46,652 nt of DNA, taken from assembly GCF_002198655.1 (NCBI RefSeq), contig NZ_MWLN01000175.1:10801-57452 (forward strand). The letters run 5' to 3'. A program made the position numbers and the translations under genes. Positions 1 through 6,563 of the stretch are shown piece by piece. The number at the start of each line of letters is the position of its first letter. Within the stretch, counting starts at the first letter, position 1. The notes under the pieces are model-generated. The model did no database searches and had not been told where the DNA came from. It saw only the letters and a list, made by a program, of their open reading frames with translations. Source of the DNA: Kineosporia sp. A_224 (GTDB lineage: Bacteria > Actinomycetota > Actinomycetes > Actinomycetales > Kineosporiaceae).

Positions 1-251
1 GCCGGCGCGCCCTCGACCCCGGGATCCGCTCCGGCGCGGGCCCGGTTGAGGGCGGCCTTCACGGCGTCCGGACCGGAGTCGTCGTCCGCGTCGTCGGTGC
101 CACCGGCGGTCCCGGTGCCTGCGGGTGCGGGCAGGCGGACGTCGTCCGGTGCGTCGTCCGCGGCCTGCTCGCGCGCCGACGGCTCGAGCGGCAGCCGGCC
201 CGACGGCGTCCCGTCGTCCTGCTCGTCGGGGCGGCGGCCGTCAGCGGACAC
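1..251 (-). CDS. dciA: DciA/DUF721 family replication protein, N-terminal part only
   Basis: A GTG at 249-251 opens a frame that runs off the left edge of the window. Its first 11 bases overlap the end of recF, which suggests translational coupling. The visible 83 residues are a hydrophilic, Asp/Pro-rich leader followed by [14 protein letters not shown] near the edge. That is the kind of Ala/Arg-rich helix found at the start of the DUF721 domain. In actinobacteria the gene after recF and before gyrB is normally this family, related to DciA, which helps load the replicative helicase. The diagnostic core lies outside the window, so the assignment rests on gene order plus this short motif. Confidence 0.7.
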
Positions 252-1389
252 GGCGCACCTCGCCCGCCATGACGTCGACCCGCGCCCCCTCGAGCGCCTC
301 GGGGACGTCCTGCGGCACGGCCGCGGTGACGAGCACCTGCTCGGCGCCCGCGACGAGCTCGGCGAGCCGGTCGCGGCGGCCCACGTCGAGCTCGGCGAAC
401 ACGTCGTCGAGGATGAGCACCGGCTCGCCGTCGCCGTCCGACCCGATGTCGGCGCGGAGCAGCTCGTACGACGCCAGCCGCAGCGCGAGCGCCAGCGACC
501 ACGACTCGCCGTGCGAGGCGAACCCCTTCGCCGGGAACGGCCCGAGCGAGATGACGAGGTCGTCGCGGTGCGGGCCGACGAGGCTCACCCCGCGCTCCAG
601 CTCCTGGTTGCGCACCTTGGCCAGTGCCTCGAGCAGCCGGGCCTGGAGGAGCTCGCGGCCGGGGGCGTCCTCGGGGACGATGTCGTCGCCGAGCGACGAC
701 TTGTACGCCAGACCCGCCGCCCCCTGCCCCGCCGAGACCTGCTCGTACGCGGTCGCCATGAACGGGGCGATCGAGTGCACGAGCTTGAGCCGGCCGGCGA
801 GGATGTCGGCCCCGACGGTGGCGAGGTGGGTGTCCCAGACGTCGAGGGTGCGGACGTCGCCGTGGCCGGCCTTGATCGTGCGGCCGGCCGACTTGAGCAG
901 GGCGTTGCGCTGCCGGAGCACCCGGTCGAAGTCGGAGCGGACGCCGGCGTACCGCGGGGCGCGCGCGACGAGCAGGTCGTCGAGGAAGCGCCTACGGGTG
1001 TCGGGGTCGCCCTTGACGAGGGCGAGGTCCTCGGGGGCGAAGAGCACCGTCCGCAGCAGGCCGAGCACCTCGCGCGCCCGCGGCACGGGGGAGCGGTTGA
1101 TCCGGGCCCGGTTCGCCGCCCCCGGGACGATCTCGATCTCGACGAGGTTCGACCGGCCGCCGCGCTCGACCGCGGCCCGGACGACGGCCCGCTGGGCGCC
1201 GAGGCGCACGAGCGGGGCGTCGTTCGTCACCCGGTGGCTGCCGAGCGTCGCGACGTAGCCGACCGCCTCGACGAGGTTCGTCTTGCCCTGGCCGTTCGGA
1301 CCCACGAGTGCCGTCACGCCCCGCTCGAGCGGGAGCTCGGCGGTCGCGTAGGAGCGGAAGTCCCCGAGGGACAGGTGGGTCAGGTGCAC
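241..1389 (-). CDS. recF: RecF, DNA replication/repair gap-binding ATPase
   Basis: An SMC-like ABC ATPase that binds single-strand gaps and helps load RecA at stalled forks. The 382-residue product has family length. Walker A is GPNGQGKTN at residues 30-38. The signature region is [14 protein letters not shown] and the Walker B region is [14 protein letters not shown] near the C-terminus. The start is a GTG at 1387-1389 giving [14 protein letters not shown], the usual RecF N-terminus; no strong Shine-Dalgarno sequence is visible. It follows gnd after about 140 bases that contain an inverted repeat, and overlaps dciA by 11 bases. Confidence 0.96.
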
Positions 1390-1529: not shown

Positions 1530-2441
1530 TCAGGAGGTCGAACCCGCGCCCGAGGTCGGGCCGGCGGAGGTGACCGCGTGGCCGCCGAACTGGTTGCGCA
1601 GGGCGGCGACGGCCTTCATCGCGGGGGAGTCGTCCTGGCGCGAGGAGAACCGGGCGAACAGCGCCGCGGTGATGACCGGCATCGGGACCGAGTTGGCGAT
1701 CGCCTCCTCGACGGTCCAGCGGCCCTCGCCCGAGTCGTTGACGTAGCCGCGGATCTGGGCCAGGTCGGGGTCGTCCTCGAGGGCCTTGACGAGCAGGTCG
1801 AGGAGCCAGGAGCGGACGACGGTGCCCCGGGTCCACGCCTTGAAGCACCCGTGGACGTCGGTGACGATGTCCTTCGCCGCGAGCAGCTCGTAGCCCTCGG
1901 CGTACGCCTGCATGAGGCCGTACTCGATGCCGTTGTGGACCATCTTCGCGTAGTGGCCCGCGCCGACCGGGCCGGCGTGGACGAAGCCCTCCTCGCGGGG
2001 GCCCTCCGGGCGCAGCGCGTCGAAGACCGGCATCGCGCGCTCGACGTCCGCGGCGTCGCCGCCGACCATGAGGCCGTAGCCGTTCTCGAGGCCCCAGACC
2101 CCGCCGCTCACGCCGCAGTCGAGGTACTTGACGCCCTTCTCGGCGAGCAGCGTGGCGTTCACGGTGTCGTCGGTGAAGCGGGAGTTGCCGCCCTCGATGA
2201 CCATGTCGCCCTCGGAGAGCACCTCGGACAGGGCCTTGACGGTCGCCGTCGTCGGGTCACCCGACGGGACCATGATCCAGACGATCCGCGGCGCCGGCAG
2301 GGTCGCCACCATCGCCGCGAGCGACTCCGCGTCGCTGACGTCGGGGTTGCGGTCGTAGCCGGTGACCTCGATGCCGCCGTTGCGCAGGCGGCTGCGCATG
2401 TTGCCGCCCATCTTGCCGAGGCCGACGAGTCCGATGTGCAC
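1530..2441 (-). CDS. gnd: 6-phosphogluconate dehydrogenase, decarboxylating (short GndA type)
   Basis: Oxidises 6-phosphogluconate to ribulose 5-phosphate and CO2 with NAD(P)+ in the pentose phosphate pathway. The 303-residue protein is the short 6PGDH form. The Rossmann motif IGLVGLGKMGGNM lies at residues 3-15, then the substrate-site segment GVSGGVWGLENGYG and the catalytic-region sequence KMVHNGIEYG. I chose the GTG at 2439-2441 because GGGAG lies six bases upstream and the next residues match the family N-terminus; the longer frame adds a His-rich non-family leader. A metabolic gene between dnaN and recF is common in this group of actinobacteria. Confidence 0.94.
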   Translation of the reverse strand: MHIGLVGLGKMGGNMRSRLRNGGIEVTGYDRNPDVSDAESLAAMVATLPAPRIVWIMVPSGDPTTATVKALSEVLSEGDMVIEGGNSRFTDDTVNATLLAEKGVKYLDCGVSGGVWGLENGYGLMVGGDAADVERAMPVFDALRPEGPREEGFVHAGPVGAGHYAKMVHNGIEYGLMQAYAEGYELLAAKDIVTDVHGCFKAWTRGTVVRSWLLDLLVKALEDDPDLAQIRGYVNDSGEGRWTVEEAIANSVPMPVITAALFARFSSRQDDSPAMKAVAALRNQFGGHAVTSAGPTSGAGSTS

Positions 2442-2603
2442 GCTGTCTCCCGAGGTCCCGAGATGCCACTGGTGGGGGTGGTGGAGGTGATCGTTGGGCG
2501 CGACCACCTTGCCACTGCGGCCCGTGCCCGGCAGGTCGGCACGCCCGAGCGGGGAGTGCGTCGTCCGGCGGGCCGCCCCCGGCGGCGGTGGCGGGGAGAG
2601 CTG

Positions 2604-2631
2604 GAACAGGTGTTCCGCGAACGGTCGTTCG
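2604..2631. promoter_or_regulatory. Two tandem GAAC-N4-GTTC sites (candidate LexA/SOS boxes)
   Basis: GAACAGGTGTTC at 2604-2615 and GAACGGTCGTTC at 2619-2630 lie 15 bases apart in the dnaN-gnd spacer, about 160 bases ahead of the gnd start. Gram-positive and actinobacterial LexA boxes have a GAAC-N4-GTTC core. The first site fits the purine/pyrimidine preference of the spacer; the second fits it partly. If functional they would control gnd-recF transcription. No promoter was recognised with confidence. Confidence 0.45.
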
Positions 2632-2664
2632 CTCGCGGTGGTGCTCGTGCGGTGACTCGGCCGG

Positions 2665-3795
2665 TCAGCCGGCGAGGCGGACCGGCATGATCAGGTACCG
2701 GTAGGTCTCGTCGTCGTCGCCCTCGGCCTCGGCCTGGCCGGAGATGACGGCCGGCTTCTGCGCCTGGGTGAACGACAGCCGGGCGAACGGCGTGGTGAGC
2801 GCGCCGAGCCCGTCGAGCAGGAACTGCGGGTTGAAGGCGATCGAGATCTCCTCGCCGGTGAGCGTGCACTCGACGGCCTCGGAGGCCTGCGCGTCCTCGC
2901 CCTGGCCGGCCTCGAGCGTCACGACGCCGTCGGTGAAGCCGAGCCGGACCGGGGTGTTCCGCTCGGCGACGAGCGCGACGCGGCGGACGGCCTCGATGAG
3001 CGCGTGGGTGTCGACGACCGCGTGCGTCGGGGACTCGGCGGGGAACAGCGAACGGACCTTCGGGTACTCGCCGTCCACGAGCAGCGACGTCGTCCGCCGG
3101 CCCGCGGCCTCGAAACCGATGAGCTCGGTGCTGCCGCCGGTCGAGAGCGCGAGGTTGACGTCGCCCGCGGCGCCGAGCGCCTTGGAGACCTCGGAGAGGG
3201 TGCGGGCCCGGACCAGCGCGACGGTGCTGACGCCCGGGGTGGACGGCCGCCACGGCAGCGTGCGCATCGCGAGCCGGTACCGGTCGGTCGCGAGCAGCGT
3301 GACGACGTCGCCCTCGATCTCCATCCGGACGCCGGTGAGGATCGGGAGCGTCTCGTCGCGGCTCGCGGCGATCGTCACCTGGGCGACGGCGTGGGTGAAG
3401 ACGTCCCCCGCGATGGCGCCGGTGCCCTCGGGCATCGCCGGCAGCGTCGGGTACTCGTCCACCGGCATCGTCAGGAGCGTGAACCGGCTCGCGCCGCACG
3501 TGAGCGAGACCCGGGAGCCGTCGGTCGAGACGTCGACCGGCTTGCCGGGCAGCGAGCGGGAGATGTCGGCGAGGAGCTTGCCGCTCACGAGCACGGTGCC
3601 GCCGTCGGAGACCTCGGCCGGGACCTCGACCCGGGCGGAGACCTCGTAGTCGAAGCTCGAGAGCCGCAGCACGCCCTCGGGGTCGGCCTCGAGGAGCAGG
3701 CCGGCGAGCACGGGGACCGGCGGCCGGCTCGGCAGCGCACGCGCCGCCCAGGTCACCGCGTCCGCCAGGACGTCTCGTTCCACCCGGAACTTCAC
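2665..3795 (-). CDS. dnaN: DNA polymerase III sliding clamp, beta subunit
   Basis: The processivity clamp that tethers DNA polymerase III to DNA. The 376-residue product has family length. It starts VKFRVERDVLADAVTWAARAL and has the three-domain clamp pattern with GGTVLVSGKLLADISRSLP early on and YLIMPVRL at the C-terminal end, the usual clamp terminus. The start is the GTG at 3793-3795; upstream sequence in the same frame is Arg/Pro-rich and not clamp-like. It is the first gene on the left side of oriC, transcribed in the same direction as dnaA. Confidence 0.97.
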   Translation of the reverse strand: MKFRVERDVLADAVTWAARALPSRPPVPVLAGLLLEADPEGVLRLSSFDYEVSARVEVPAEVSDGGTVLVSGKLLADISRSLPGKPVDVSTDGSRVSLTCGASRFTLLTMPVDEYPTLPAMPEGTGAIAGDVFTHAVAQVTIAASRDETLPILTGVRMEIEGDVVTLLATDRYRLAMRTLPWRPSTPGVSTVALVRARTLSEVSKALGAAGDVNLALSTGGSTELIGFEAAGRRTTSLLVDGEYPKVRSLFPAESPTHAVVDTHALIEAVRRVALVAERNTPVRLGFTDGVVTLEAGQGEDAQASEAVECTLTGEEISIAFNPQFLLDGLGALTTPFARLSFTQAQKPAVISGQAEAEGDDDETYRYLIMPVRLAG

Positions 3796-4085: not shown

Positions 4086-4097
4086 GAACGAGGGTTC
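4086..4097. promoter_or_regulatory. GAAC-N4-GTTC site (candidate SOS box) upstream of dnaN
   Basis: GAACGAGGGTTC lies about 290 bases ahead of the dnaN start, on the dnaN side of oriC. It matches the GAAC-N4-GTTC core of actinobacterial LexA boxes, but the spacer does not fit the fuller consensus. It belongs to a group of four such sites in this part of the window. Confidence 0.3.
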
Positions 4098-4192
4098 GCT
4101 CCGGGCCCGGTCCGGGCCTGCTCGGGAGGGATCGGGGAACTGTGGGTGGATGTCGAGAGAGGAATTGACTCTTCAGGGTTTGTCATAGCGCC

Positions 4193-4219
4193 TGTGGATC
4201 CTGTGGAGAACGGTCGTTC
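4193..4219. promoter_or_regulatory. DnaA-like boxes adjoining a GAAC-N4-GTTC site
   Basis: TGTGGATCC (4193-4201) and TGTGGAGAA (4202-4210) are back-to-back reverse-strand DnaA boxes with two and one mismatches. The second overlaps GAACGGTCGTTC (4208-4219), the same 12-mer that occurs at 2619-2630. The overlap would let a LexA-type repressor compete with DnaA, if both bind. Confidence 0.4.
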
Positions 4220-4379
4220 GCGCAGGTCGCGTCGTGAGTGGCCTGTCGACGGACTGAGGACGACGAGGGGTCGAACGGGGGACGTCCCGTGGACGACGCC
4301 GGCCCGTTCACAGACCCCGGTTCTTGTCATGCACTTTGACCATGGCGCCGGTCCACAGGTGGGACGTGGATGTCCACCG

Positions 4380-4399
4380 ATATCCACAGGTTGTCCACC
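4380..4399 (+). promoter_or_regulatory. Two DnaA boxes
   Basis: ATATCCACA (4380-4388) and TTGTCCACC (4391-4399) each differ by one base from the actinobacterial consensus TTRTCCACA and lie in the same orientation two bases apart. Confidence 0.65.
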
Positions 4400-4469
4400 G
4401 GCCTGTGGGTTGTGCGGCTGCAACGATTACCGTCCGGCAGTTATCCGTCGGTGATGTGGGCATCGCGCT

Positions 4470-4490
4470 GTGTCCACAGAGTTGTCCCCA
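4470..4490 (+). promoter_or_regulatory. Two DnaA boxes
   Basis: GTGTCCACA (4470-4478) and TTGTCCCCA (4482-4490) each have one mismatch to TTGTCCACA and share orientation. Confidence 0.55.
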
Positions 4491-4534
4491 CGCTGTGTAC
4501 GAAACCGGGCACTTGACGTGCGACGTGTACTGAA

Positions 4535-4590
4535 AGTGGTTTGCAGACCACTCAGAGATATGTTCTTGTGCACAAATATCCGAGATGTCC
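4535..4590. other. Candidate DNA unwinding element with small inverted repeat
   Basis: This is among the most AT-rich runs in the origin. It holds the inverted repeat AGTGGT-TTGCAG-ACCACT (4535-4552) and a palindromic DnaA-like box TTGTGCACA (4566-4574). Unwinding elements are usually AT-rich and flanked by DnaA boxes, as here. The assignment is by composition only. Confidence 0.4.
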
Positions 4591-4629
4591 GTATGCACTC
4601 GTGACTGTCATCGTGGGCCGTGTGCACCC

Positions 4630-4645
4630 TGTGGACTGTGGACAA
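4630..4645 (-). promoter_or_regulatory. DnaA boxes, one perfect
   Basis: TGTGGACAA at 4637-4645 is a perfect reverse-strand TTGTCCACA. It overlaps a weaker TGTGGACTG at 4630-4638. Confidence 0.75.
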
Positions 4646-4731
4646 ACCCTGGGGACAGTCGCCGTCCGTCGTCCTGGCCTGCACTTCGTCCGATTTCGCC
4701 GACTCGCGTCGTCTCTCCGGATGACGTCGAG

Positions 4732-4767
4732 TTACCCACACGCCCTGTGGACAAAGCCTGTGGACGA
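4732..4767. promoter_or_regulatory. Cluster of three DnaA boxes near the dnaA end
   Basis: TTACCCACA (4732-4740, one mismatch), TGTGGACAA (4746-4754, perfect, reverse strand) and TGTGGACGA (4759-4767, one mismatch, reverse strand) lie at near-helical spacing. Confidence 0.75.
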
Positions 4768-4919: not shown

Positions 4920-6563
4920 TCAGCCGCGCGACGTCTGCTTGATGCGGTTCGTGAGCTCGGTGACCTGGTTGTAGATCGAGCGCCGCTCGGCCATCAGGTG
5001 CCGGATCTTGCGGTCGGCGTGGATCACCGTGGTGTGGTCGCGGCCGCCGAACTGCTGACCGATCTTCGGCAGCGACAGGTCGGTCAGCTCCCGGCACAGG
5101 TACATGGCGATCTGACGGGCGTTGACGAGGACCCTGGACCGGGAGGACCCGCAGAGGTCCTCCATCGTCAGCCCGAAGTAGGCCGACGTCTGGGCCATGA
5201 TCGTCGCGGCCGTGATCTCCGGGGTGTCGTCCGCCGGGATGAGGTCCTTGAGGACGATCTCGGCGAGCGACAGGTCGACCTGCTGCCGGTTGAGGCTGGC
5301 GAACGCCGTGACGCGGATGAGCGCGCCCTCGAGCTCGCGGATGTTCGTGGAGATCTTCGAGCCGATGTACTCGAGGACGTCGTCGCGCACCTGGAGCCGC
5401 TCGCCGATGGCCTTCTTGCGGAGGATGGCGATCCGGGTCTCGAGGTCGGGCGGCTGGACGTCGGTGATGAGACCCCACTCGAACCGGCTGCGCATCCGCT
5501 CCTCGAAGCCGGACAGCAGCTTGGGCGGCAGGTCGGACGTGATGACGACCTGCTTGTTCGCGTTGTGGAGCGTGTTGAAGGTGTGGAAGAACTCCTCCTG
5601 GGTCTGGACCTTGCCCTGGAGGAACTGGATGTCGTCGATGAGGAGCACGTCGACGTCGCGGTACCGGCGCTGGAACGAGCTCGCCTTGTCGTCGCGGATG
5701 CTGTTGATGAAGTCGTTGGTGAACTCCTCGGAGTTCACGTACCGCACCCGGACCCCCGGGTAGAGGCTGTGCGCGTAGTGGCCGATCGCGTGGAGCAGGT
5801 GGGTCTTGCCCAGCCCTGACTCGCCGTAGACGAAGAGCGGGTTGTACGCCTTGGCCGGGGCCTCGGCGACCGCGACAGCCGCGGCGTGCGCGAAGCGGTT
5901 GCTCGCACCGGGGACGAAGTTCTCGAACGTGTACTTCGGGTTCAGCCGCGCCGGCTCGGAGGCCTGCCGCGGGTTCGAGGAGCGACCGGTGCCGGGCCGG
6001 GCGAGCTCGCCCGGCTCCAGCTCGGGGTGGGCGAGCTCGGGGTAGGCGAACGTCGGCTCGTCGCGGTGGACCGGGGCGACCCCGGCCGGCGCCGTATAGC
6101 CGTTCGACGTGCTCGTCCCGTTCGTGCCCTCGTAGGAGCGGACGTCGATGACGCCGTCGATGCCGTAGCTGCGGCTCGGGCCGAGCCGGCCGGTGTCGTC
6201 GAGGTCGTCGGTGCCGCGGGCGGTGGCCAGACCGCCGGTCGAGGGGCCGCCGTCCGGCCCGCTCGTCGCCGGGTTCGAGGTCTCCGCGGGGCCTGCGGCC
6301 AGGCTCGGGTCGACGGTGACCGCGAGCCGGACGGGCCGGCCGAGCTCGGCGGAGAGCGCGTCGGTGATCGTCTCGCGCATGCGCTGCTCGAGCAGGCCCT
6401 TGGTCAGCTCGTTCGGGGCGGCCAGGAGCGCCGTGCCGTCGAGGAGGCCGACCGGGCGGGTGAGGCGGACGAACGCCCGCTGCTGCGGCGTCACCCCGGC
6501 GGCGTCGAGGGCCTCGAGCGCACGGAGCCAGATCACCGGGAAGTCTTCCGGGGACGTCGTCAC
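4920..6563 (-). CDS. dnaA: Chromosomal replication initiator DnaA
   Basis: AAA+ ATPase that binds DnaA boxes and opens oriC. The 547 residues follow the family plan. Domain I covers about 1-90. A low-complexity Gly/Pro/acidic domain II linker runs to about 205. Domain III has Walker [10 protein letters not shown] near residue 250 and the Walker B sequence [10 protein letters not shown]. The C-terminal domain IV carries the DNA-binding signature [15 protein letters not shown]. The start is the GTG at 6561-6563, giving [17 protein letters not shown] perfect DnaA box 50 bases upstream suggests autoregulation. It is divergent from rpmH. Confidence 0.98.

Follow-up and report, generated by a model that had tools for sequence, protein, structure and literature searches.

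Predicted operators of a TetR-family repressor around dnaN and at the edge of oriC in an actinobacterial genome

Three palindromic dyads that stand on either side of dnaN in a 7.2-Mb actinobacterial genome (G000, of a family that includes Kineosporia) appear to be operators of a TetR-family repressor. The assignment of these dyads as TetR operators is well supported by sequence. The fuller reading, to which we give a somewhat better than even chance, is that the dyads at 2619, 4208 and 4086 serve a repressor of the TetR family, most probably the product of a gene on contig C162, and that the dnaN-gnd-recF run is thereby under ligand-controlled repression. If this is true, the supply of sliding clamp or the firing of the origin would be tied to a small-molecule signal via TetR operators that flank dnaN and lie at the edge of oriC. 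Among titles and abstract openings in the literature, we found no report of such a link, nor of LexA or TetR sites at an actinobacterial oriC or dnaN.

Dyads around dnaN and the edge of oriC

The window, the whole stretch of 46,652 bases that was analyzed, comes from contig C85 of G000. On its minus strand the gene order is dnaA, oriC with its DnaA boxes, dnaN, gnd and recF. The features discussed here are listed below; operator matches refer to the 15-mer AGCGAACGNNCGTTC, the predicted operator of the C162 TetR gene, and G001 and G002 are the genomes of two congeners.

4920-6563, minus strand: dnaA (NCBIfam TIGR00362, 512 bits)
4202-4767, limits approximate, no strand assigned: DnaA-box cluster of oriC, in the dnaA-dnaN interval
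4208-4219, minus strand: dyad GAACGGTCGTTC, predicted second operator copy, dnaN-side edge of oriC; one mismatch to the 15-mer, also in G001 and G002
4202-4210, minus strand: DnaA-like box TGTGGAGAA (reverse strand TTCTCCACA); one mismatch to TTRTCCACA
4086-4097, minus strand: dyad GAACGAGGGTTC, predicted third operator, between oriC and the start of dnaN; one mismatch to the 15-mer, also in G001 and G002
3047-3061, plus strand: weaker operator-like site AGCGAACGGACCTTC, within dnaN; one mismatch, also in G001 and G002
2665-3795, minus strand: dnaN (NCBIfam TIGR00663, 278 bits)
2619-2630, minus strand: dyad in the dnaN-gnd gap, AGCGAACGACCGTTCGC on the minus strand, the best match to a predicted TetR-type operator; exact AGCGAACGNNCGTTC, also in G001 and G002
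2604-2615, plus strand: dyad GAACAGGTGTTC, without a match to the TetR operator
1530-2441, minus strand: gnd, 6-phosphogluconate dehydrogenase (NCBIfam TIGR00872, 344 bits); likely start a GTG at 2441, picked from the translation
241-1389, minus strand: recF (NCBIfam TIGR00611, 278 bits)

The exact dyad GAACNNNNGTTC occurs four times in the window, at 2604, 2619, 4086 and 4208, with all four copies within 1.6 kb around dnaN. In 100 shuffles of the window it appeared 0.40 times on average and twice at most, none of the 100 reaching four copies, and across the genome 54 copies were counted against 12 for the reversed control. An earlier note on this DNA had described the dyads at 4086 and 4208 as SOS-box-like sites inside oriC. 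The GAAC-N4-GTTC core of a LexA box is indeed present in both, the 12-mer at 4208 is identical to that at 2619-2630, and it does overlap the DnaA-like box at 4202-4210, with 3 bp in common (4208-4210). As a description, "inside oriC" suits 4208, which sits at the edge of the DnaA-box cluster that faces dnaN, and is loose for 4086, which lies about 105 bp further out. The dyads at 2604 and 2619 are spaced 15 bp apart.

Among the records compared, the closest dnaN loci are those of a groundwater MAG (L006) and of Kineosporia sp. R_H_3 (L007), with DnaN 99-100% identical; from the spacing of their dyads, these loci probably belong to G001 and G002, respectively, and these two congeners and G000 make up the three species of the genus compared in all. 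All four window dyads are found in both congeners. The 4086 dyad is kept while the bases immediately adjacent to it vary, and its left flank, GGAGCGAAC, is also the flank of TetR operator A. Since the three species of this one genus are so close (84-88% identity at dnaN fourfold sites, 92-94% over the dnaA-dnaN region), the fact that they share the locus sites is, taken alone, weak evidence. Such closeness, with the whole region conserved, would fit chance GC-rich palindromes kept through the general conservation of oriC, an explanation that the clustering of the dyads and the flanks in common with the TetR promoter render scarcely credible. The dyads are operator-like; they cluster more than chance predicts and occur in 3/3 species of the genus compared. 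For the 3047 site, coding constraint alone could be sufficient to keep it.

Scores of the dyads against LexA boxes of the same genome

Genome G000 has one LexA gene. The stretches around all 54 GAACNNNNGTTC dyads were inspected, and a LexA matrix was built from 15 boxes of this genome, that is, 15 of the 18 dyads scoring at least 22 bits (omitted: L120:1501, L159:1501 and L156:64). The matrix boxes stand before recA, lexA, dinB, genes of the UvrD-type helicase, radical-SAM, Fic and epimerase classes, and eight DUF222-type genes. Pfam backs the first seven labels, recA through epimerase, and 7/8 of the DUF222 genes; L156 has no Pfam or NCBIfam match, and its label of DUF222 paralogue reflects likeness to the other copies. 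In leave-one-out scoring, the 15 training boxes reached 22.1-31.4 bits. The 54 dyads form two groups, of which one (18 dyads) scores at least 22.3 bits and the other (36 dyads) no more than 16.2, and the window dyads all fall in the low group (11.4 bits for 2604, 7.9 for 2619, 6.5 for 4086 and 2.6 for 4208). None of the four has the outer TC/GA flanks. By the organism's own standard, the window dyads are not LexA boxes.

The proposal that LexA binds these dyads, coupling oriC firing or dnaN expression to DNA damage, does have points in its favor: the LexA boxes of G000 are built around GAACNNNNGTTC, the 2604/2619 tandem resembles the lexA operator of Kineosporia (15 versus 16 bp), and strong LexA boxes adjoin oriC in that sister genus. 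Against a matrix made from the genome's own boxes, however, scores of 2.6-11.4 bits and the missing TC/GA flanks led us to reject LexA as the binder here, and we consider this proposal highly unlikely. The link from DNA damage through LexA, which the note had suggested, is likewise unsupported in this genome, the LexA scores being too low; the core GAAC-N4-GTTC is by itself not enough to identify an SOS box. As a separate observation, the members of the multi-copy DUF222-type family (L003, L134, L137, L143, L146, L153, L154 and L156; 7/8 by Pfam) each have a strong LexA box about 33 bp before the predicted start, and the family is likely SOS-induced.

A TetR gene with the same predicted operator

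A TetR-family gene on C162 also has the 12-mer of 2619 and 4208 in its promoter, which contains two dyads, 58 bp apart. The encoded protein has a TetR_N domain above the cut-off and a BetI-like C-terminal domain just below it. No close second TetR was found in the genome, where a search at 1e-5 gave 8 matches, the next best at 4.2e-10 with 32% identity. At 1e-20, the protein was found in 6/12 genomes searched, G000, G001, G002, G003 (42%), G004 and G008 (both 46%), with no match in the family genomes G005, G006 and G007. Relatives with 41-46% identity, in Kineosporia (G004, G008, G009, G010) and in G003, have kept AGCGAACGNNCGTTC just upstream; in G003, G004 and G008, AGC followed by GAACGNNCGTTC stands directly upstream of the TetR gene. 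The TetR genes of these relatives are transcribed away from a neighboring ABC-2-type membrane gene (Pfam scores of 30.2 and 36.4 bits against a cut-off of 31.6), and the TetR neighborhood in G000 includes a flotillin-like gene (243 bits, below the model cut-off of 700).

We searched 13 family genomes for exact AGCGAACGNNCGTTC, whose AGC prefix was fixed when the 2619 flank was already known. The search returned 18 rows, corresponding to 17 dyads, against 0 for the reversed control. Promoters of C162-type TetR genes account for 11 dyads (8 genomes, G009 and G010 added), the dnaN-gnd site (2619 in the window) and its equivalents in G001 and G002 for 3, and the other 3 lie elsewhere (G006, G009, G012), with no TetR match within the 2.7-3 kb around them. 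There was no exact copy in G005, G007 or G011. Exact GCGAACGNNCGTTCGC, searched in G000 and G002, has only two copies in each, the TetR promoter and 2619. With one mismatch to AGCGAACGNNCGTTC allowed, the 7.2 Mb of G000 yielded 18 rows, or 16 dyads (reversed control, 1), and 4 of the 16 are in the dnaN locus, at 2619, 3047, 4086 and 4208; the window has no further place within one mismatch. Each of these four sites is found again in G001 (control, 3) and in G002 (control, 2). A Markov model of the window predicts 0.17 hits, against 5 seen (4 dyads), and 1.6 kb would be expected to hold 0.002 at the background density of the 10 other dyads in 7.2 Mb. Taken together, the dyads at the dnaN locus match the TetR operator, exactly at 2619 and with one mismatch each at 4086 and 4208, the match is specific genome-wide, and it is present in three species.

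The weak points of the TetR reading are the single mismatches at 4208 and 4086, the coding position of 3047, and the 2604 dyad, which falls outside the operator set. An alternative is that 2604 and 2619 act in RNA, as two hairpins past the dnaN stop that form a terminator or an mRNA-decay stop, separately from 4086 and 4208. The pair lies 35-61 nt past the stop, both stems are formed in a 130-nt fold, and the sole base change in the 2604 dyad across the three species is in the spacer, i.e. in the loop. Yet the fold is only mildly better than shuffles (z -2.18; 7/200 as good), a 75-nt fold retains only one of the two stems, no T run follows them, and 2619 matches the TetR operator over 16 bp including flanks that a hairpin would not need. 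This RNA explanation is unlikely for the two dyads; that at 2604 could be part of a hairpin pair beyond the dnaN stop.

The dyads could also be operators of another TetR-class protein, or of another regulator of the genus, rather than of the C162 protein. Indeed, GAACGNNCGTTC also precedes an aminotransferase-like gene, in a palindrome of the CTGAACGNNCGTTCAG type, in all three species. Within the genus, however, going by the places that carry the exact 15-mer, the dnaN site has it in common only with the C162 TetR promoters, and the TetR paralogues are distant; we consider this alternative unlikely. The CTGAACGNNCGTTCAG-type palindrome, located at L001:1501, L182:1501 and L225:1501 before the aminotransferase-like gene (a label given by eye), is probably another TetR operator.

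Two further dyads were considered. For the C47 dyad, which precedes a gene presumably of the DUF397 type, neither core nor flank pointed to a counterpart in the 10 GAACGNNCGTTC dyads of G001, a genome 88% complete, or in the 7 of G002. The C242 dyad recurs in each of the three species and was set aside as it lies within coding sequence (a WYL-type regulator, by eye). C242 of G000 also contains a short DnaN-like match with 33% identity (L161, 1041-1481), and similar matches occur in both congeners.

If the C162 TetR is the binder, we infer the following course of binding, repression, looping, ligand release and competition with DnaA at the window sites. A TetR dimer would recognize AGCGAACGNNCGTTC and repress its own gene, and the same protein would also occupy the gap between dnaN and gnd and, on the dnaN side, the edge of oriC. 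Bound in the gap as one or two dimers, it would affect transcription that runs into gnd-recF. Dimers at 4086 and 4208, upstream of dnaN, may control a leader promoter or form a loop with 2619, 1.47-1.59 kb away, and the dimer at 4208, overlapping TTCTCCACA, could weaken DnaA binding at the origin edge. A small ligand would free TetR and thereby raise dnaN-gnd-recF transcription. The -10 of the dnaN promoter, guessed by eye, is about 85 bp from 4086, so 4086 and 4208 are not obvious blockers of that promoter.

The TetR gene and the dnaN site co-occur in G000, G001 and G002. The exact 15-mer was found at dnaN in 0/10 other family genomes, although Kineosporia and G003 have the TetR; G003, G004 and G008 have the gene without an exact dnaN site, and the link between TetR and dnaN is therefore at best genus-specific. 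The dnaN-gnd gap itself (window 2442-2664) is about 220 bp long, against about 20 bp in the Kineosporia loci folded, so that Kineosporia does not share the operator-bearing gap. Because the locus sites are known only from three close species, the TetR-dnaN link rests more on the clustering, and on the match to an operator that precedes TetR relatives in other genera, than on the locus sites being conserved.

LexA boxes beside oriC in Kineosporia and known systems

We scanned for LexA boxes the stretches before dnaN of 110 loci plus the window, some loci being from the same genome; for the 13/111 stretches in which dnaA was not located, the scan covered up to 1.6 kb before dnaN. Six genomes represent Kineosporia: G004 (K. 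mesophila), G008, G009 (K. babensis), G010, G011 and G012 (K. rhizophila). Boxes of at least 19.8 bits stand at the dnaN side of oriC in 5/6 (G004, G008, G010, G011, G012), and the sixth, G009, has a degenerate box of 16.7 bits. Outside Kineosporia, only Myceligenerans (20.6) reaches this score among the 110 loci and the window. Two strong boxes, with a spacing of 15 bp, are seen in each of G004, G008 and G010; G011 combines a strong box with a weaker one, and G012 has a single one. The Kineosporia lexA promoter has two LexA boxes 16 bp apart. The positions are as follows:

L012:4058-4084, also L014, L091, L092, L094, L095 and L097: strong LexA boxes near oriC in Kineosporia; degenerate in L096
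L025, L031-L036, L039, L040, L064 and L049, about 119-128 bp before dnaN: LexA-like TTCGAACAYTAGTAC in Promicromonospora and Myceligenerans

The Kineosporia boxes are about 0.9-1.2 kb from dnaN and, by eye, adjoin the last DnaA-like box, with poor alignment further towards dnaN; one alignment, read by eye, contained no conserved stretch suggesting a gene between them and dnaN. The Kineosporia counterpart of the 4202-4210 box is, by eye, TTATGCACA, TTACCCACA or TTATCAACA. In K. mesophila (L012) the first LexA box is 119 bp past the element ATCCACA, and in the window the 4086 dyad is 96 bp past what is presumed, by eye, to be the same element. With strong LexA boxes near oriC in Kineosporia, the earlier LexA idea may hold in this sister genus, and the boxes would allow a test, in an actinobacterium, of whether the SOS response controls initiation directly. 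A weaker site, TTCGAACAYTAGTAC, stands about 119 bp before dnaN in 10/10 Promicromonospora loci and scores 14.2-18.7 bits; it could be a promoter -10 or a weak SOS box.

A more speculative reading, with a low chance of being right, is that the dnaN-side edge of oriC is a repressor docking place in Kineosporiaceae at which the repressor has been swapped between genera, LexA in Kineosporia and a ligand-sensing TetR here, either of which would gate DnaA assembly or the dnaN run. In that case the origin would respond to DNA damage in one of the two genera, and in the other to a small molecule.

The C162 TetR resembles the autoregulated BetI/AcrR-type repressors in its TetR_N domain, its BetI-like C-terminal domain (below cut-off) and the palindrome in its own promoter, and differs from them in that its predicted operators also flank dnaN and touch oriC. 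AdpA differs in both protein and motif from those described here. This transcription factor binds within the Streptomyces oriC (PMC3411110), whereas here a predicted operator is at the origin edge only. The SOS box motif reported for Streptomyces venezuelae LexA is tCGAAC-N4-GNNCGa (PMC9380542), of which the window dyads have the GAAC-N4-GNNC core without the outer TC/GA; gnd, recF and oriC are absent from the main text of that study, and a count for dnaN likewise gave 0. Against the models for RefZ and SlmA, the C162 TetR scores 23.9 bits (cut-off 180) and 21.0 bits (cut-off 120), respectively, below both. RefZ of Bacillus is described as a TetR-family protein with few near-palindromic chromosomal sites positioned relative to oriC and is proposed to act on FtsZ; of its five sites, each chromosome arm has two and the fifth is near oriC (PMC6657595). 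By contrast with these RefZ sites, the window dyads are clustered within 1.6 kb.
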